Of a stretch of DNA of 22,057 nt, positions 2,553-21,759 are shown piece after piece. The DNA comes from a virus. The notes under the pieces are model-generated. The model searched no databases. It was not told where the DNA came from and saw nothing but the letters and a program-made list of their open reading frames with translations. The number at the start of each line of letters is the position of its first letter. Positions within the stretch are counted from its first letter, which is position 1. Location: the IMG/VR virus record IMGVR_UViG_3300025122_000185, positions 1 to 22,057 of that record; one strand, written 5' to 3'. The translations under genes and the position numbers were made by a program.

Positions 2553-3842
2553 ATGGCGATACCCACCCTTACCCCCCAAAGCACAGTTAGCGCAATTGTA
2601 CTTCCTGCCACCGGCTCAGCCCTGTATGTGGCGGATCAGTGTCCGTTTGGGATGTTTACCGGCTCTACAGAGTTTTTATCTGGAGCAGCAGAACAAGTTG
2701 CATATATATATAAAAAGCTTGGTGGAGATGTTTTAGATCTTGAGATTACAACCGGAAGTGTTTATGCTTCCTACGAAGAAGCAGTATTAGAATATTCTTA
2801 TATTGTTAACATGCATCAGGCAAAAAATATATTGTCAGATGTTTTAGGAATGACAACTGGTACTTTCAATAGTGACGGGGAACTGCTTGCAGGCACGTTG
2901 TCTTCTAGTCTTAGCGGCACACACGTTGCTCTTAAGTATCCACAGTTTACATTTTCATACGCACAAAGGGTAGCAGATGCCTTTTCAACCGAGGCTCGTG
3001 CAGGAGGTACCACGAGAATATATTCCGCATCCTTCAGTACCACCGGAAGTGTACAGGATTACGATTTACAGCAGATTCTCCACAGCGCTAGTGTTAATAA
3101 TTTAGATGCAGCAACAGGTGAGCCAGTCCCTTATGCTGGGTTTGTAAGCGGAAGCAGAATAATAGTTGAAAAAGTTTATTATAAAACCCCTTCATCAATG
3201 TGGAGATTTTTTGGATACTATGGCGGACTAAATACCGTGGGTAACCTAGCAAACTATGGACAATATGCAGACGATTCAACATTTCAATTAGTCCCAGTTT
3301 GGCAAAATAAGGCGCAGGCAATGGCGTTTGAAGACTCGATTTATTCAAGAAATTCCCACTGGTCCTTCGAGCTAAATAATAATATGTTAAGAATATTTCC
3401 TACACCAGTGCAAGGAGGGGCTTCACCGAACTATTTCTGGTTTAATTTTCGGATAGTTGAAGATGCCTGGACAGCAACATCGGGCTCTATGGTAGATGGA
3501 ATTAATAATATGAATACAATTCCATTTGGAAATATTCCTTACCAAAATATTAATTCTATTGGTAAGCAGTGGATTCGACGCTTTTCGCTTTCTTTAACAA
3601 AAGAGACTCTGGGTCAAGTCCGCTCCAAGTTCGCTACTGTGCCCATCCCAGGTGAGTCCGTTACACTCAACGGACCTGCTCTGATATCGGAAGGGCGAGA
3701 AGAACAAGACAAGCTCAGAACAGAATTAAAAGAAACACTCGATGAATTAACATATCAAGCCTTAATGAAAAAGGACGCAGAAATAGCCGAATCAACCAAT
3801 ACAATAAATCAAAATGTACCAGCAGGCGTTTATGTTGGATAG
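2553..3842 (+). CDS. Virion neck protein, probably T4 gp13-like
   Basis: This 429-aa protein shows no signal peptide or membrane segment. Near the N-terminus (about residues 50-100) YIYKKLGGDVLDLEI, then YEEAVLEYSYIVN, looks like the helical segment common to head-tail connector proteins. Near the C-terminus (about 340-400) come KETLGQVRSKF, PIPGESVTLNGPALISEG and a charged helix REEQDKLRTELKETLDEL. That layout (GxxRxKF, P.PG..V.LNG, EG.EE) resembles the end of gp13-type neck proteins as I remember them. The next two genes look like gp14 and gp15, so position supports gp13. In T4, gp13 binds the portal after packaging and joins gp14 to close the neck. The middle part, rich in Ser, Thr and aromatic residues, makes it longer than T4 gp13 (about 309 aa). 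The functional call is inference; a virion structural role is much safer. Confidence 0.6.
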   Translation: MAIPTLTPQSTVSAIVLPATGSALYVADQCPFGMFTGSTEFLSGAAEQVAYIYKKLGGDVLDLEITTGSVYASYEEAVLEYSYIVNMHQAKNILSDVLGMTTGTFNSDGELLAGTLSSSLSGTHVALKYPQFTFSYAQRVADAFSTEARAGGTTRIYSASFSTTGSVQDYDLQQILHSASVNNLDAATGEPVPYAGFVSGSRIIVEKVYYKTPSSMWRFFGYYGGLNTVGNLANYGQYADDSTFQLVPVWQNKAQAMAFEDSIYSRNSHWSFELNNNMLRIFPTPVQGGASPNYFWFNFRIVEDAWTATSGSMVDGINNMNTIPFGNIPYQNINSIGKQWIRRFSLSLTKETLGQVRSKFATVPIPGESVTLNGPALISEGREEQDKLRTELKETLDELTYQALMKKDAEIAESTNTINQNVPAGVYVG

Positions 3843-8375: not shown

Positions 8376-8927
8376 ATGAGCGGAAATTTTTGGTCATCAA
8401 AGGACTTAGAGCCAAAACGCCAGTTTAGATTTATTGTAAGCTTTCAACCCGCTGGTATCGACTTGAAACTGGCTTGCAAAACGGTAGATCGCCCAAGTTT
8501 TACAATTGGTGAACAAGAACACCGATTCTTTAACCACACTTTTTATTATCCTGGCAGAATGAACTGGAACACAGTAGGGATGACTATAGTTGATGCCGTA
8601 ACCCCAGGCTCAACCGAAGTTCTTTATGACTATTTATCTGATATCGGCATTCAACAGCCCAGGTCTGAAGCCGACGCGATGAAGACGACAATTACTAAGG
8701 CGACTGCCGTAAGTTCGCTTGGCGATGTCAAGGTCAGAGAACTTGGCACAGATAACAAGGGCGAGACAGTCATTATAGGCGAATGGGCATTAATTAATGC
8801 TTTTATAACCGAAGTGAACTTCGGTAGCCACTCGTATGATGCAGACGAGATGGTTGAATTAACCATAACATTACGGTACGATTGGGCAACCTATGACGCA
8901 ATACCGTCAGGTAAAAAGTTGAATTAA
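8376..8927 (+). CDS. Tail tube protein, T4 gp19-like, with an altered C-terminus
   Basis: This 183-aa protein (T4 gp19 is 163 aa) forms the hexameric rings of the inner tail tube. Family features are FRFIVSFQPAG near the start, then KTVDRPSF, FYYPGRMNWNTVGMTIVD, the helix VLYDYLSDIG, and the final strands WALINAFITEVNFG...VELTITLRYDWA. CAGGAG at 8361-8366 precedes the start. A 65-bp tandem duplication begins at codon 160 (8853). The reading frame enters the second copy out of phase and stops after LN, so the protein ends GKKLN, whereas the second copy, read in its own frame, ends GRKLA. The fold should be unaffected because all core strands lie in copy 1. Confidence 0.93.
   Translation: MSGNFWSSKDLEPKRQFRFIVSFQPAGIDLKLACKTVDRPSFTIGEQEHRFFNHTFYYPGRMNWNTVGMTIVDAVTPGSTEVLYDYLSDIGIQQPRSEADAMKTTITKATAVSSLGDVKVRELGTDNKGETVIIGEWALINAFITEVNFGSHSYDADEMVELTITLRYDWATYDAIPSGKKLN
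8808..8825 (+). other. Small perfect hairpin inside the tail tube gene
   Basis: ACCGAAG (8808-8814) pairs perfectly with CTTCGGT (8819-8825) around a TGAA loop, within coding sequence and 28 bases before the tandem duplication. No T-run follows, so it is not a standard terminator. It may be chance or may have helped polymerase pausing. Confidence 0.35.
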
Positions 8928-8982
8928 CCATAACATTACGGTACGATTGGGCAACCTATGACGCAATACCGTCAGGTAGAAA
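8853..8982 (+). repeat. 65-bp tandem duplication at the end of the tail tube gene
   Basis: Bases 8853-8917 and 8918-8982 are direct adjacent copies of one 65-base unit. The first 61 bases are identical and there is one mismatch overall (A in copy 1, G in copy 2). The period is not a multiple of three. Near identity points to a recent event, or to an assembly error. Confidence 0.95.
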
Positions 8983-8992
8983 ATTAGCATAA
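8918..8992 (+). pseudogene. Stranded duplicate of the tail tube 3' end
   Basis: Read from 8918, this stretch encodes 24 codons matching the tail tube C-terminus (VELTITLRYDWATYDAIPSG) followed by RKLA and a TAA at 8990-8992. It is out of frame with the tube gene, has no start of its own and is not translated as such. It probably preserves the original gene end. The AT-rich gap that follows (8993-9048) shows no clear hairpin. Confidence 0.75.
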
Positions 8993-9048: not shown

Positions 9049-9924
9049 ATGGCTAGAAATAATCAAGCACGCACTGGTGTTGCGGAAGCACCAGTCGATG
9101 CTACTGAAAACGAAACTCCGGTGGAGCCCAAAGCACCACCTAAGCCGGGTGGTCTTGCGTATGCCATCCCCACAGAGTTCGTAGAACTTCCATCCGAAGG
9201 GCGGTATTACCCTCCAGGTCATCCACTATATAAGCAGGATACCGTTGAGATACGATATATGACCGCTAAAGATGAAGACATCCTTACATCACAGACTCTT
9301 TTGCGTAAAGGAGTTGCGATTGATCGGATGTTAGAAAATCTCCTGGTTAATCAAGAGATTGTGGTCGATGATCTGCTTGCTGGTGACAAAAGCGCACTAA
9401 TTCTTGCTGCTAGGATTTCTGGATATGGAGCATCTTATCAAACTAGAGTTACGTGTCCTGGGTGTAAAACAGCATCGGTTTATGACTTTGATCTTGAAGC
9501 ATCTTCCACAAATCCAGGCACAGTTGTGACAGAAGAAGTCGAGGAAGTCCAAATATCACCACACGGAACCTTCTTGGTAACATTACCTACAACAGAATAC
9601 CAAGTTGAATTTCGACTCTTAACAGGAAGAGATGAAAAATATTTAACAGATGCAGCCAATAAAAAATCAAAGATGAATTTGCCAGATTCTAACGCCACAG
9701 AATTATTAAAAAGGCTTATTATCTCAGTTAACGATGTTGCCAATGGGGGAGAGATAAGTGATTTTGTCGATAATATGCCAGCCCTCGACTCACGCTTCCT
9801 TCGGGCTTGCGTAGTCGGCGCAACCCCAAATGTTGATATGTCGCAAGAATACTCTTGCTCACAATGCGGTTATGAATCCGAAATGGAGGTGCCGTTGACA
9901 GCGGACTTTTTTTGGCCTGGATAA
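9049..9924 (+). CDS. T4 gp26-like baseplate/tail-assembly chaperone with split four-cysteine site
   Basis: This 291-aa protein starts with about 35 disordered, Pro/Glu-rich residues. Then come AIPTEFVELPSEGRYYPPGHP and VEIRYMTAKDEDILTSQTLLRKG, the signature of the T4 baseplate protein family (gp26-like), which I regard as related to tail assembly chaperones. CPGC (Cys136, Cys139) and CSQC (Cys270, Cys273) lie about 130 residues apart and could together bind one zinc. The position between tube and tape measure genes is where chaperones of the lambda G/GT type sit. AGAGGT precedes the start. The last codons run through seven T's (9907-9913), and the frame overlaps a second open frame there, so part of the product may be a frameshifted longer form. 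Alternatively it is a plain structural baseplate component. Confidence 0.7.
   Translation: MARNNQARTGVAEAPVDATENETPVEPKAPPKPGGLAYAIPTEFVELPSEGRYYPPGHPLYKQDTVEIRYMTAKDEDILTSQTLLRKGVAIDRMLENLLVNQEIVVDDLLAGDKSALILAARISGYGASYQTRVTCPGCKTASVYDFDLEASSTNPGTVVTEEVEEVQISPHGTFLVTLPTTEYQVEFRLLTGRDEKYLTDAANKKSKMNLPDSNATELLKRLIISVNDVANGGEISDFVDNMPALDSRFLRACVVGATPNVDMSQEYSCSQCGYESEMEVPLTADFFWPG
9907..9913 (+). other. Possible ribosomal frameshift site (seven T's)
   Basis: The end of the gp26-like gene reads GAC TTT TTT TGG. A +1 or -2 shift here enters the frame that is open from 9899 and continues through the 59-aa ORF to 10111. A -1 shift would stop at the TAG of GAAGTAG, near 9938. No clear stimulatory hairpin was found. 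This is inference from sequence and from the known habit of tail chaperone genes. Confidence 0.35.
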
Positions 9925-9931
9925 TGAATAT

Positions 9932-10111
9932 ATGGAAGTAGTTTATGAGCATTTCTTTTATTTAAAACAACATGGTAATTGGAGCTTTCATGAAGCATAT
10001 AGTTTACCAATTGGTTTAAGAGCTTGGTTTGTAAAAAGGCTATCGAAACACTTCGAAGATCAAAATCAGGAAGCTGAAAAAGCAAGAAATAAGTCGAAAG
10101 GTCGTTATTAA
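9932..10111 (+). CDS. Small tail-chaperone partner (59 aa) or frameshift extension
   Basis: The ORF encodes 59 residues and begins with the ATG 8 bases after the gp26-like stop. The sequence holds EHFFYLKQHGNWSFHEAY, then LPIGLRAWFVKRLSKH and a charged helical tail. The pattern (aromatic helix, W-S/T-F-x-E, LP-x-x-LR-x-WF) resembles the small proteins that follow gp26-like chaperones in other T4-like phages as I remember them. There is no good Shine-Dalgarno site, so it is translated either by coupling or as a C-terminal extension through the T-run at 9907. It lies between the chaperone gene and a strong terminator. It is small, but the conserved style and position argue that it is real. Confidence 0.6.
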   Translation: MEVVYEHFFYLKQHGNWSFHEAYSLPIGLRAWFVKRLSKHFEDQNQEAEKARNKSKGRY

Positions 10112-10199: not shown

Positions 10200-10535
10200 A
10201 TGAAAAATAATGGTGACTTAGTGCCAATTAAAATTGATTTAACAATTGGCAATGCAATTAACGAAAGTTACCTTGCCATGTTTGGTGGCGCAATTCAAAC
10301 AATTCTAGGTGGAATGTTTGGTGCCCGAAGCCCCGCTCTTGTTCCCGTTAATGTTGTGGGATCGAGTTCACAAATTAAATCTTTTGAAAAAGCGCTCGCA
10401 GGTGAAGCCAAATACCTCAGAGCAATGAACCAATATGGACTAAATGATCCAAAGGTTGTAAAGAACAAAGCAGCTTTAGATAAAGTAATAAAAAGCTTCG
10501 AAAAAGAAACCGGAATTATTTGGCCATTTAAATAG
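10200..10535 (+). CDS. Small protein of unknown function before the tape measure gene
   Basis: I do not recognise this 111-aa protein. It has a polar N-terminus (MKNNGDLVPIKIDL), then a glycine-rich hydrophobic stretch at about residues 22-50 (AMFGGAIQTILGGMFG, then PALVPVNVVG), and a charged C-terminal helix rich in Lys and Ala ending in IIWPFK. The hydrophobic stretch contains charged breaks and is not a clean membrane helix. AAGGAA at 10186-10191 supports the start, and the ORF ends 13 bases before the tape measure. The place between a terminator and the tape measure suggests a tail or tape-measure partner, but nothing in the sequence proves this. Confidence 0.7.
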   Translation: MKNNGDLVPIKIDLTIGNAINESYLAMFGGAIQTILGGMFGARSPALVPVNVVGSSSQIKSFEKALAGEAKYLRAMNQYGLNDPKVVKNKAALDKVIKSFEKETGIIWPFK

Positions 10536-10548
10536 GATATAATAAATT

Positions 10549-12906
10549 ATGCCACCAGTCCCGCCAGCCCCAGGCACCCCCGAATACACCCTTGCACTCG
10601 AAGCTGCCGCAGTAGCGGCTGACCGGCTCGCTGCCTCATACAGCGCAATGGGCACGCGAGGCGCGGGAGCATCCACAGCAATGGAGGAACTGGCCGTCCG
10701 CCTTCGCACCAATACGGAAACCCTTGACGCAGCGACTGACCAGCTTTCCACGTACACGACGAGACTACGTGAGATGGAAGATGCCTCTAGAACTCTTGCA
10801 AGAGGTACAGAGCGCTTAATTAGTACACTAACTGGTGTTGAAAAGACCGCAGATGGTGTCGTCGCCGGTTTCGCCAGAATGATTGCCGAAGGCGACGGGC
10901 TGCAAGGTAAGTGGAACGCATTGAAGGACACCGTTCACATAGTGGGTAGGGAAATTGCAGAAACGATGACACCGACGAATATGGCGATTGCAACTTTTAA
11001 AAAGTTTACTGAAGCGTCATCTGTCTTAACTCTAAGTATTGATAACGCAACTACGGCATTTGCCAAATCCACAGGAACCGGATTAAAATATAGGGACGTA
11101 ATCCAGTCGGTAGAGTTTCAAAATCGTGATCTTGGTGTAACCGCAGATCACGCGGCTACCGCAGTCGGTGCTCTTCAAAGCGGATTTTCAGAATTCTTAA
11201 TGATGTCCGAGGGGGCACAAAAAGAGTTAGCTGGCACCGTAGCTCAATTTGAAACATTCGGCGTCTCTGCGGACAATACAACTGGCTTTTTACAAGCCGT
11301 CACCAGAACAACAAATACGACAAGAGGCGGTGCCCTAAGACTTCAAAAGTCTATAATGGGTACTGCAAAAGCCTTTGGCGACGATCTTAATAAGGTTATG
11401 CAGGAAGCCAGCACAATAATGCCCAAACTTGCAGTTCACGGAAAAGATATGGAAAAAGTCTTTGATGACCTCTATTCTGCCTCCAAACGAACTGGTATGG
11501 GAATGCAAGATATTATATCCCTGTCTAAGCAATTCGACACATTTGAGAGCGCTGCTGACGCAGCAGGGCAACTAAATTCTGTTCTTGCTTCAATGGGTGG
11601 CACACCACTTGTTGACACAATGGAAATTCTTGAAACTACAAATCCGGCTGAAAGAATGGAACTATTCCGCAATGCCATTTCGCAATCCGTTGGCGATTTC
11701 GAGAGTCTTGACTATTGGTCACAAGAAGCTCTAGCTAGCACATTAGGAATGTCAAGCGAGCAATTGCTTATGATGATGAACCAAGAGGAACAGGTAGACG
11801 CCTTAGAAGTTGCTATGTCAAAAGCAGGATTAAGACAAGAAGAGATGGTAGAGTTACAGAAAGCAGGTCGAGATTTTGCAATGGAGGCGAAAATTTTAGC
11901 AATGTCGTTTGCGGTATCCCTCCAGAAGCCACTTACATTGCTTAAAGATACGATGGCATCTATTAGCAAATTCATGATGGATATATCTAGAGATAATCCC
12001 TGGCTGGCAGGGCTTGCAAAAATCGGTGGTGCTTTAGCCATAGCCGCAGGAATGGGTGCCCTCACGACAATTATTGGCTTTATGATGATGAGAGGTTCCT
12101 CGCCGTTGTACCAGACATATGCCTCTGATACTGTTACTCATGGCTTGTTAAACGCGTTGATCACAAGGTTCGGGGTCACAGGACCAGCACCACCCACACC
12201 CGGTGGCCCCGGCGGTGCAGCAAGCGGCGCGTTGAAAGCCGTCGGTATAACCCTCGCCTTAACAGCAGCCGTGAAGGGGATAGGCAAACTTCAAAGTGAT
12301 ATGGAAAAAGACAAGGCAGCGGGGGAAGAAGAAAAAGCCGCGAGCAGGGCGCGATGGGGCAAAGGGCTGGCCGTTGGTCTGGGAATCACCGGGGCAATAT
12401 TAGGCTCGATTGTACCCGGTGCTGGTACTGCGGGAGGGGCTGCACTGGGCATCGGCATGGGAACAGCCATCGGCGGACTCTTTGGCGTGGGTGCTGGCGC
12501 AGCATTGGGGTCGGAAATCGGCGGCAGCATGGCAGAAGGCGGCATCACCCAGGGACTGTCTATTGCTGGAGAAGCCGGTCCCGAAGCTGTCGTTCCATTG
12601 CCTAATGGCAAAACGATTCCTGTAACGCTCCATGGTGCCGCATTAGAACCGCTAATTAATCCGCTAATTCAGGCGATTGATAGTATGACGCCTATGAAGC
12701 TCCATACTACCGCATTAGAACCGCTAATTCAGGCGATTGATAGTATGGCGCGTGAACCTGTTGCACTCGATCCGCTAATTAAAAAGCTTGATGAAGTCGC
12801 AAACCGTATTACAAACGCAGTAAATAAAACTCAAACAACGGTTTTAATTAGCGACTTAGAAGCGGCAGGGTTCAGTAGAGGAAACGCTTCGGCGTTGAAG
12901 CCATGA
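10549..12906 (+). CDS. Tail tape measure protein (T4 gp29 position)
   Basis: This 785-aa protein is long and helical. It opens with a Pro-rich segment, then Ala/Thr/Leu-rich heptad-like helices. A hydrophobic stretch at about residues 484-512 (GGALAIAAGMGALTTIIGF) and a glycine-zipper region at about 604-660 could insert in the host membrane. The C-terminal motif MAEGGITQG, then IAGEAGPEAVVPLPNGKTIPV (about 660-690), is a strong hallmark of tape measure proteins. Residues about 698-745 carry a short repeat (ALEPLI...QAIDSM twice, then ALDPLIKKLDEV). At the usual 0.15 nm per residue the tail would be near 118 nm. Only a weak AGGA (10534) precedes the start. The stop overlaps the next ATG as ATGA. 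It is longer than T4 gp29 (590 aa). Confidence 0.92.
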   Translation: MPPVPPAPGTPEYTLALEAAAVAADRLAASYSAMGTRGAGASTAMEELAVRLRTNTETLDAATDQLSTYTTRLREMEDASRTLARGTERLISTLTGVEKTADGVVAGFARMIAEGDGLQGKWNALKDTVHIVGREIAETMTPTNMAIATFKKFTEASSVLTLSIDNATTAFAKSTGTGLKYRDVIQSVEFQNRDLGVTADHAATAVGALQSGFSEFLMMSEGAQKELAGTVAQFETFGVSADNTTGFLQAVTRTTNTTRGGALRLQKSIMGTAKAFGDDLNKVMQEASTIMPKLAVHGKDMEKVFDDLYSASKRTGMGMQDIISLSKQFDTFESAADAAGQLNSVLASMGGTPLVDTMEILETTNPAERMELFRNAISQSVGDFESLDYWSQEALASTLGMSSEQLLMMMNQEEQVDALEVAMSKAGLRQEEMVELQKAGRDFAMEAKILAMSFAVSLQKPLTLLKDTMASISKFMMDISRDNPWLAGLAKIGGALAIAAGMGALTTIIGFMMMRGSSPLYQTYASDTVTHGLLNALITRFGVTGPAPPTPGGPGGAASGALKAVGITLALTAAVKGIGKLQSDMEKDKAAGEEEKAASRARWGKGLAVGLGITGAILGSIVPGAGTAGGAALGIGMGTAIGGLFGVGAGAALGSEIGGSMAEGGITQGLSIAGEAGPEAVVPLPNGKTIPVTLHGAALEPLINPLIQAIDSMTPMKLHTTALEPLIQAIDSMAREPVALDPLIKKLDEVANRITNAVNKTQTTVLISDLEAAGFSRGNASALKP
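12641..12782 (+). repeat. 60-bp-spaced direct repeat near the 3' end of the tape measure gene
   Basis: Bases 12661-12687 and 12721-12747 are identical over 27 bases, 60 bases apart, and each is preceded by a related CGCATTAGAA segment. In protein, ALEPLI...QAIDSM appears twice, followed by a looser third unit, ALDPLIKKLDEV. The near identity at DNA level suggests recent slippage or duplication in frame. Confidence 0.85.
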
Positions 12907-19732: not shown

Positions 19733-20935
19733 TTGCTTATTCAAGCATTAGACGACAAGCAACACTGTATTGGCATTTATCACGATGGCAAGCTAATCTA
19801 TGATTGTGACGAATTCGACCTTGATACCGTAAGTGCAACTTGGAATTATAGTCCTATTTTCGCTCAAAAGAATGCTGTCATTGCCTCTCTGTTCGTTAAG
19901 GGGAAATCATTGGATGAGGTATGTCCTGATTTTTTAAGACATCGTTGGGAGGCTATCAATGCTCGTTTGAGGGCATTCTACAAGTCATTTTCAACAGCGA
20001 AAGTCTCTCTTGATAAGCACTGCTTCTATGATCTCGTCCCCCAAAGATTTTTGCTTGAATATTGTGAGGTTAAGAATAAAATCACTGAGCACATCCTCAA
20101 AGAATATGACAAGCCAGAGAACTATGATTTTATGAGAAATCTGGCGGAATTCACATACAACATTAGACAACAAAAACTAACTGTTGACTACGCAGAAATT
20201 GCGAGAGAAAGCCACCAATTTAAGACCAGGAATTTTTTAAAAAAAAGCAAATATATTAAGCCACATATTTCATATAATATTCACGGAACAAAAACTGGTC
20301 GAATGACAACTTACAAAGGAGGCTTTCCGATACTAACTTTAGATGCAGACTATAGAACTATATTGAAACCTACAAATGATTATTTTGTTGAGCTTGATTA
20401 TAATGCTGCCGAACTTCGGGTTCTTCTTGGACTAAACGGAAAAGAACAGCCACAAGACGACATCCATCAGTGGAATATTGACAATATTTATCGCGGTATG
20501 GGAACCCGCGAAGAAGCGAAGAAGCGTATATTTGCTTGGCTATATAATCCAAAGTCTAAGGACTGTCTATCAAGTCGATATTATAACCGTGATGAAGTAT
20601 TGAGAAAGCACTTCAATGGAACACAAGTAAAAACCTTTTTTAAGAGACAAATAGAAGCGGACAAACACCACGCATTAAACTATTTAATACAGAGCACCAC
20701 AAGCGACTTGGTACTATCCAGAGCGTTTAAAATTGCAGATGTTTTGAAGGAGAAAAAATCCTTTATTTCTTTCACACTTCATGATAGTATTATCATAGAT
20801 TGCGATGATAGCGAGCGTATAATTATTGGAGAGTTAATAGATATTTTTTCTGAAACTCCTTTTGGCGTTTTTAAGGTTAATGTAAGTGCTGGAAAATCAT
20901 ATGGCACAATGAGGAGACTAGAATGGATACAATAA
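19733..20935 (+). CDS. Compact family A DNA polymerase (polymerase domain only)
   Basis: This 400-aa protein is predicted to synthesise DNA. All core family A motifs are present in order: TKTGR (residues 186-190); motif A ELDYNAAELR with catalytic Asp222; the O-helix R259-K263-F267-Y271, the same spacing as Arg754-Lys758-Phe762-Tyr766 of E. coli Pol I; N316...Q320 before the palm helix; and motif C LHDS with catalytic Asp351, where the usual HDE has Ser352. No 3'-5' or 5' exonuclease domain is present, and only about 180 residues precede TxTGR, so the thumb is reduced. The start is TTG at 19733: a stop in the same frame at 19727 excludes a longer protein, and AGGT lies upstream. It overlaps the next gene by 13 bases. 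Finding it among virion genes is unusual. Confidence 0.88.
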   Translation: MLIQALDDKQHCIGIYHDGKLIYDCDEFDLDTVSATWNYSPIFAQKNAVIASLFVKGKSLDEVCPDFLRHRWEAINARLRAFYKSFSTAKVSLDKHCFYDLVPQRFLLEYCEVKNKITEHILKEYDKPENYDFMRNLAEFTYNIRQQKLTVDYAEIARESHQFKTRNFLKKSKYIKPHISYNIHGTKTGRMTTYKGGFPILTLDADYRTILKPTNDYFVELDYNAAELRVLLGLNGKEQPQDDIHQWNIDNIYRGMGTREEAKKRIFAWLYNPKSKDCLSSRYYNRDEVLRKHFNGTQVKTFFKRQIEADKHHALNYLIQSTTSDLVLSRAFKIADVLKEKKSFISFTLHDSIIIDCDDSERIIIGELIDIFSETPFGVFKVNVSAGKSYGTMRRLEWIQ

Positions 20936-21759
20936 TCGGTCTTGGAAAGGCGGGCTGTGCTATTGCAGACAAGTTCGCTCAATACCCTCAATATAAAATT
21001 TTTAAAATCGATAGCGAAGGCATAGATAAAGACGAGAAATGTACACATCTCTTAAAAAGACAAACATCTCCAGAGGAATATGAACAACACATTCCGTCTC
21101 TGAAAACTTTTTTTAGGCACACGACCAATGATATTCTTTTTGTGCTTTCCGGGGCTGGATATATCTCGGCAACTTGCTTGGGGATATTAGAGCAGTTATC
21201 TCATAAAAGCTTGAGTATTCTTTATATTAAACCTGATCGTGAATTTTTGGGAGAAAACAACGCCCTCCAGGAAAGGGTAGTGCGATGTGTTTTACAAGAA
21301 TATGCTCGTTCGCATGCCATTGGACGCATATATTTGGTTGACAACAAGATGCTCGAAACAATATTAGGTGATGTTCCAATTATTGGATATTATGACAAGC
21401 TAAACGACTTAATCGTATCAGCGCTCCACATGGTGAACGTATATGATCATCAAACACCAGTCCACACCACGGCTTATGAACCTAAAGAAACAGCAACTGT
21501 AAGCACAATTGGTGTTGTTGATATAGATAGCGGTGAAGAAAAATTGTTTTTTTCCCTTGACAGTATCTCTGAAAAGTGTTATTATTATGCTATCAATTCA
21601 ACAGCACTTGAAACAGATGGCAAACTACTACGACGATTAACCGAGAATATTAATAAAAATATTGACAAAGACATCAGAGCAGCATTCCAAGTTCATTCTA
21701 CATCATACGAACAGAATTATGGTTATGTAGTTGTCAACACAAGTCAGACGAATAACTAA
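20923..21759 (+). CDS. Divergent tubulin/FtsZ-like protein
   Basis: This 278-aa protein follows the FtsZ/tubulin order of elements. IIGLGKAGCAIADKF (residues 4-18) matches the first nucleotide loop (GxGxxG). NDILFVLSGAGYISATCLGILEQL (69-92) matches the FtsZ stretch FVTAGMGGGTGTGAAP, but the GGTG core is YISA. ILYIKPD (99-105) fits the next strand. RIYLVDNKMLETILGD (135-150) fits 'IPNDKLL', and YYDKLNDLIVSALHMV (156-171) fits helix H7 'FGAANDVL', with the guanine-binding Asn and Asp kept (Asn161, Asp162). A C-terminal β-domain follows; I do not find a clear NxDxxD catalytic loop. GAGGAG lies before the start, which overlaps the polymerase stop. It could polymerise or bind nucleotide in an altered way. 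A Rossmann-type protein is the alternative. Confidence 0.62.
   Translation: MDTIIGLGKAGCAIADKFAQYPQYKIFKIDSEGIDKDEKCTHLLKRQTSPEEYEQHIPSLKTFFRHTTNDILFVLSGAGYISATCLGILEQLSHKSLSILYIKPDREFLGENNALQERVVRCVLQEYARSHAIGRIYLVDNKMLETILGDVPIIGYYDKLNDLIVSALHMVNVYDHQTPVHTTAYEPKETATVSTIGVVDIDSGEEKLFFSLDSISEKCYYYAINSTALETDGKLLRRLTENINKNIDKDIRAAFQVHSTSYEQNYGYVVVNTSQTNN

Follow-up and report, generated by a model that had tools for sequence, protein, structure and literature searches.

Probable +1 recoding at the end of a gp26-like gene in T4-like viruses

Does the gp26-like gene of this virus end at its own stop codon, or is it continued in a second reading frame? The window, by which we mean the whole 22,057-nt stretch that was analysed (IMG/VR record IMGVR_UViG_3300025122_000185), holds genes of T4-like myovirus morphogenesis, i.e., those for a gp23-like capsid protein, sheath, tube, the gp26-like protein, tape measure, and a baseplate wedge. 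A first-pass annotation of the sequence had suggested that the gp26-like gene (here TAC-N) is joined to a 59-aa ORF behind it by programmed frameshifting. The features of the locus are as follows.

8376-8927: tube gene (phrog_4542, E = 2e-24).
9049..9924, + strand: TAC-N, gp26-like / T4_baseplate protein of 291 aa with two CxxC pairs (zinc-ribbon-like) and the C-terminus FFWPG; PF12322 (E = 1e-14; 55.2 bits, above the curated cut-off of 24.5) and phrog_150 baseplate hub (E = 7.9e-18).
9885..9891, + strand: Shine-Dalgarno-like GGAGGTG within the gene, 18 nt ahead of the proposed P-site codon (from the sequence).
9907..9915, + strand: proposed slip site TTT TTT TGG (from the lowest synonymous variability of the gene and the site variants).
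9922..9924, + strand: 0-frame stop TAA, end of the short form (from the sequence).
9914..10111, + strand: TAC-C, the putative +1-frame extension of 65 codons plus stop, containing the 59-aa ORF (9932-10111; from alignment and substitution phase).
10200..10535, + strand: 111-aa ORF of no assigned function, between TAC and tape measure.
10549..12906, + strand: tape measure protein, the predicted chaperone client (phrog_167, E = 3.2e-10).

In the 0 frame, TAC-N ends with GAC (9904), TTT (9907), TTT (9910), TGG (9913), CCT, GGA, and TAA (9922-9924), and the T-run at 9907-9913 is seven T long. The +1 frame is closed by TGA at 9896-9898, is open from 9899, reads GGC (9914), CTG, GAT, AAT, GAA, TAT, and ATG (9932), and ends with TAA at 10109-10111; the 59-aa ORF (ATG 9932 to 10111) lies inside it, with its ATG 7 nt past the 0-frame stop. 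The overlap of the two frames across TTTTTTT and into the 59-aa ORF, as described in the first-pass annotation, is thus confirmed by the sequence, and the ORF's want of a good ribosome-binding site is borne out by the 22 bases preceding ATG 9932, which hold no Shine-Dalgarno (SD) sequence. A +1 shift would give a product of 353 aa (TGGC read as one step) with 65 residues from the new frame, in agreement with the predicted gain of about 65, and the gp26-like name is upheld by the PF12322 match. The proposed slip-site sequence is TTTTTTTGG. The placing of the chaperone next to the tape measure gene holds in part: the unit sits between the tube gene and the tape measure gene, and the latter is close downstream, but the 111-aa ORF intervenes before 10549.

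Two further observations were made in the window. The end of the tube gene (8853-8983) consists of two tandem copies with a 65-base period and 98% matches, present as a single copy in the close relatives L003-L005; as a result of this repeat, the tube protein ends in KKLN rather than RKLA. The repeat may be either a true duplication or an assembly artefact. Positions 20923-21759 encode a 278-aa protein whose N-terminal GLGKAGCAIADKF stretch has a nucleotide-binding look, and for which Pfam and PHROG returned nothing at E ≤ 0.01.

Conservation of the frame overlap

Junctions were drawn from six viral-contig scans, one bacterial-genome scan (one locus), and phage records. Three of the viral-contig scans had the first gene only as query and contributed the best 80 of 580, of 599, and of 143 relatives, respectively, while one used the second ORF as query; all counts describe nearest relatives, not the whole family. 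The window itself (L001/L002), T4 (L115), copies of SP-15 and RM378 (L199/L200), and two incomplete sequences (L015 and L141) were dropped before counting. A complete gene end was present in 194 of the 196 sequences of the first set, and identical junction regions were merged to leave 157 distinct junctions; for start-codon scoring these were reduced to 149 by removing L071 and seven that lack an F-[F/L]-W site (L110-L114, L117, and L157). The second set comprised 80 loci, which, less three already in the first set and one incomplete, merged to 64. Groups A, B, and C denote the window-like junctions, the immuto-like junctions, and the second set, with one A and one C sequence omitted for short flank.

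The +1 frame ran past the 0-frame stop with no fewer than 45 open codons in 152 of 157 junctions of the first set and 62 of 64 of the second, i.e., in 214 of 221 of these nearest relatives, including Mel-JY01, immuto, SP-15, LIS04, GXN1, and RM378. Since this many homologous junctions share the open +1 frame, the overlap is not due to chance. The check proposed with the frameshift reading, conservation of the T-run and frame overlap in relatives, therefore supports it. Five of the seven exceptions are contigs that end early (L030, L058, and L178 in the first set, two in the second); in another, L071, the second domain is in the -1 frame. In the last, L114, a separate ORF spans the stop; it is the only record to approach the separately initiated second ORF which, according to the first-pass annotation, would speak against frameshifting. 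Agrobacterium phage Atu_ph07 (L117) was counted as +1-open, yet its +1 peptide is unlike TAC-C.

When SP-15 and RM378 proteins were used as queries against viral contigs, each returned one locus, the phage itself, and three gp26-like queries had no match among plasmids at E limits of 1e-3, 1e-2, and 0.1. The +1 site recurs in a gp26-like gene on contig CALMEO010000055.1 (L118) of a ~1.3-Mb bacterial genome assembly, which could be either a provirus or a phage contig binned with that assembly. In the records of immuto (L109), SP-15 (L111), and RM378 (L116), a small +1 ORF is annotated from an internal start (36, 39, and 58 aa, respectively) and the frameshift extension is missed.

Coding signal upstream of the start codon

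Counting +1 codons from GGC 9914, codon 6 was Tyr in all 79 scorable window-like junctions (TAT 50, TAC 29; one of the 80 was too short), and codon 7 was ATG in 61 of them and ATA, ATT, TCC, ACT, or others elsewhere. The second set had Tyr at codon 6 in 61/63 and ATG at codon 7 in 27/63. In 46 relatives with the 0-frame stop at the identical place, codons 5-6 fall between that stop and the ATG position, and pairwise differences within these codons numbered 360/45/1246 at positions 1/2/3. As judged by this comparison, the +1 frame evolves as protein-coding sequence from near the slip site on, upstream of any conserved start codon. A Tyr codon that is kept, an ATG that varies, and coding-type substitutions in the gap together argue that translation enters from upstream.

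Start codons were also scored directly. No ATG, GTG, or TTG was present in the first 20 +1 codons of 64/211 junctions (5/79, 43/67, and 16/63 in groups A, B, and C, and 0/2 in others). Where these 20 codons do hold a start, the one nearest the site was accompanied by an SD in 0/75 window-like, 2/24 immuto-like, and 0/2 other junctions; as controls, the TAC-N ATG had one in 70/142 and the next long ORF in 35/123. Possible starts occur upstream of the site as well, inside the +1 open stretch, in 42/80 window-like, 48/67 immuto-like, and 1/2 other junctions; in the 25 junctions detailed they lie 8 to 51 codons before the site, and some are common to subgroups. Two of these counts weigh against recoding: with upstream starts included, any start with an SD-like match was found in 6/80 window-like and 13/67 immuto-like junctions, and only 9/149 were free of start codons throughout the +1 open stretch as far as codon 20. 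If this virus is considered by itself, separate initiation is possible, since the window, like the 61 window-like relatives above, has the ATG at codon 7, albeit without an SD.

Such initiation could take the form of translational coupling, in which ribosomes terminate at 9922-9924 and restart at ATG 9932. The 7-nt distance would suit it, as would the SD-like element ahead of the stop, since, according to a review, numerous genes of bacteria and phages carry elements of this kind before their ends. However, codon 7 is not ATG in 18/79 window-like and 36/63 second-set relatives, and the Tyr codon conserved as protein stands upstream of the ATG. Moreover, the SD-like element is no rarer in group A relatives without an early ATG (17/18) than in those with one (44/61), and thus apparently does not serve the ATG. 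We consider termination-reinitiation very unlikely.

The slip site and the Shine-Dalgarno-like element

TTT TTT TGG or a close variant lies in the overlap of the frames. Among the 157 distinct junctions of the first set, the site is TTT TTT TGG CCT in 112, TTT CTT TGG CCT in 29, TTT CTA TGG CCT in four, and TTC TTT TGG in three, and the remaining nine are single variants or have no site; the second set adds 11 cases of TTC TTT TGG and one of TTT CTT TGG. Synonymous entropy was scored over 275 codon columns for the window-like junctions and 236 for the immuto-like ones. In both, the lowest five-codon stretch of the gene was codons -3 to +1, where the mean ratio of observed to expected entropy was 0.18 and 0.19, respectively, vs. 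medians of 0.80 and 0.77; as relatedness depresses all columns equally, the comparison is one between columns of the same gene. RNAalifold, run on 41 sequences, found no pair of a conserved RNA stem around the site, a point against recoding.

With high confidence, comparison of the junctions points to one recoded gene that makes a short and a long product through a +1 slip, rather than to two genes. We infer that the shift is ribosomal and +1, and likewise its efficiency. The majority of ribosomes would read TAC-N (291 aa) to the TAA at 9922. In a minority, tRNA-Phe would stand on UUU 9910-9912 with UGG (Trp) waiting in the A site, slip +1 onto UUU 9911-9913, and let reading resume at GGC CUG GAU, producing the 353-aa TAC-NC with a 65-residue helical C-terminal domain. 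Pairing by hand indicated that +1 re-pairing covers the site variants, with UUU on UUU or UUC, and CUU on UUU as in prfB.

The same frame could be reached by a -2 ribosomal frameshift of the type used by phage Mu, with a product one residue longer. On seven T's the P-site tRNA is able to re-pair two bases back, but pairing by hand gave no acceptable -2 re-pairing in the 14 TTC TTT TGG junctions (UUU on UCU) or the four TTT CTA TGG junctions (CUA on UUC), whereas all 18 permit +1 re-pairing; a -2 shift is accordingly improbable. The first-pass annotation had offered Listeria phage PSA as an example of a +1 tail chaperone, an example that falls away, as the +1 frameshifts of PSA affect the genes of its major capsid and tail proteins and none is known in a tail chaperone. 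Alternatively, the polymerase might slip on the T-run, so that mRNAs one U shorter or two U longer yield the long form by ordinary translation. A run of seven, as in the window, or of eight is present in 165/213 relatives; however, it is no longer than four T's in 48/213 (TTTCTTTGG, TTTCTATGG, TTCTTTTGG) and the frame relation there is unchanged, leaving transcriptional slippage highly improbable. That two independent genes overlap by accident, as the separate ORFs of L114 might suggest, is barely credible given the +1 relation in 214/221 junctions, the coding-type substitutions in the gap, and slip codons that are the least variable of the gene.

The proposed +1 slip is preceded by an SD-like element. 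A match of at least 6 nt to AAGGAGGTGA was found between 45 and 4 nt upstream of the A site in 61/79, 31/67, and 63/63 sequences of groups A, B, and C, and, at less than 80% identity, in 22/24, 10/16, and 29/29 (61/69 clusters in total). Maxima over 300 codon shuffles were 12, 7, and 12 for the three groups, so that the observed values exceeded every shuffle, and twelve other windows of the gene gave 0-3, 0-6, and 0-1 in the same <80% subsets. The signal is weaker in group B, for which other windows reached 20/67 in the full set; RM378 has no element, and the match in Mel-JY01 is only 5 nt. Matches of at least 6 nt are separated from the P-site codon by 18-19, 23-25, or 28-29 nt. A review puts stimulatory SD spacers at 3 nt in +1 shifts and at 9-14 nt in -1 shifts. 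At 18-29 nt, rather than 3 nt before the P site as in prfB, the element is too distant for the known +1 mechanism, which counts against the +1 reading.

In one lineage, the shift may run the other way. The two contigs L071 and L072, which represent a single distinct sequence, carry a duplicated ATAC past the 0-frame stop (bases 3329-3380), and their second domain is in the -1 frame, which is open from the site GAT TTT TTT TGG, i.e., U_UUU_UUU; a switch of frameshift direction in this lineage is possible. We put forward only tentatively, as a doubtful proposal, that the long-range SD-like element (18-29 nt) is a conserved +1 stimulator or pacing signal and that the 4-nt duplication in L071 turned the same U-run from a +1 into a -1 site. 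If true, SD action would extend to spacings outside 3 nt (+1) and 9-14 nt (-1).

Protein domains and known tail chaperones

The predicted fold of TAC-N (pLDDT 83.0) matches predicted models of phage baseplate hub proteins, among them the hub subunit of the SP-15 baseplate (E = 9.6e-19) and gp26 of Aeromonas phage 25 (E = 9.4e-6). In a fold search of solved structures no hit reached E ≤ 0.001; the tail assembly chaperone of HK97 came at rank 6 (E = 2.1; target-normalised TM 0.48). There was no sequence match among solved structures, and none of five proteins scored above a cut-off in NCBIfam. TAC-C is predicted to be helical (residues 4-21, 25-29, and 33-63; pLDDT 84.9), and in a 45-row alignment G1, Y29, P32, and R36 are invariant and L2, Y6, and G21 are at least 90% conserved. 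A fold search of viral models with TAC-C found nothing at E ≤ 0.001.

By sequence, TAC-C and DUF6760 (PF20546) would at most be distant kin: the window scores 16 bits, below the cut-off of 27, and 22/45 relatives match at E ≤ 0.1 (best 1.3e-4), again below cut-off. DUF6760 was found in none of 286 bacterial genomes of one phylum, a search that is uninformative because 14 controls were empty too. At E ≤ 0.1, the TAC-C of 5/45 relatives matched phrog_634 (baseplate hub assembly catalyst; best 0.0045) and that of 2/45 matched phrog_32580 (tail assembly chaperone). The C-terminus of T4 gp51 was tried as a TAC-C homologue and rejected, the hhalign result not being significant (probability 0.1%, E = 0.71), although the stretch that aligned is the GNWSF motif. 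The fused alignment matched the C-terminal part of T4 gp26 with an hhalign E of 0.00099 at a probability of only 22%.

Frameshifted tail chaperones are classical, and the arrangement seen here is that of the TAC-N/TAC-NC tail chaperones, of which T4-like phages have provided earlier examples. In work by Vladimirov, Gautam and Davidson (Virology 2022), several T4-like groups reportedly frameshift, whereas T4 itself relies on two genes, 26 and 51. The T4-like systems share with this locus a second domain in another frame ahead of the tape measure gene and a poly-T site; the shift here would be +1, whereas a paper citing the 2022 study terms the T4-like poly-T signals -1. The PRFect paper, also citing that study, describes some T4-like phages that, in place of frameshifting, have a long fused gene as well as a short one. 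In T4, gp26 resembles gp51 over an N-terminal region (BLASTP E = 2e-6), and a table in a review gives both as hub assembly chaperones, which fits the view that the two forms come from different genes in T4; there, unlike here, the two genes are on opposite strands.

According to a review, the partner of lambda gpG is the tape measure protein and that of the T domain added by frameshifting is the tube protein, and the virion contains neither form. The likeness, a short form and a frameshift-extended form, is one of arrangement, and the lambda shift is -1. After lambda gpG/gpGT, both TAC-N and TAC-NC would act as chaperones of tape-measure and tube assembly, a role that position, domain make-up, and recoding make likely. 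With bacterial prfB (release factor 2), the locus would share a forward slip of the P-site tRNA, as it shares an upstream SD-like element, and the immuto-like CUU_U variant would make the identical CUU-to-UUU slip. The locus differs from prfB in having UGG rather than a stop in the A site, besides the longer SD spacer. A literature search, mostly without subscription papers, returned none that deals with the present +1 group or with an SD-like element at such a distance, and we make no claim that they are unpublished.

The natural slip-site variants (UUU_U, CUU_U, and UUU_C) are on offer for tests of +1 slippage, and the SD-like element makes the question of ribosome-mRNA contacts during elongation directly testable. 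For annotation, the small ORFs that follow gp26-like genes, for example in immuto, SP-15, and RM378, would be parts of one longer protein. A tentative reading of a single contig has become a well-supported recoding site, probably common to many environmental T4-like viruses.
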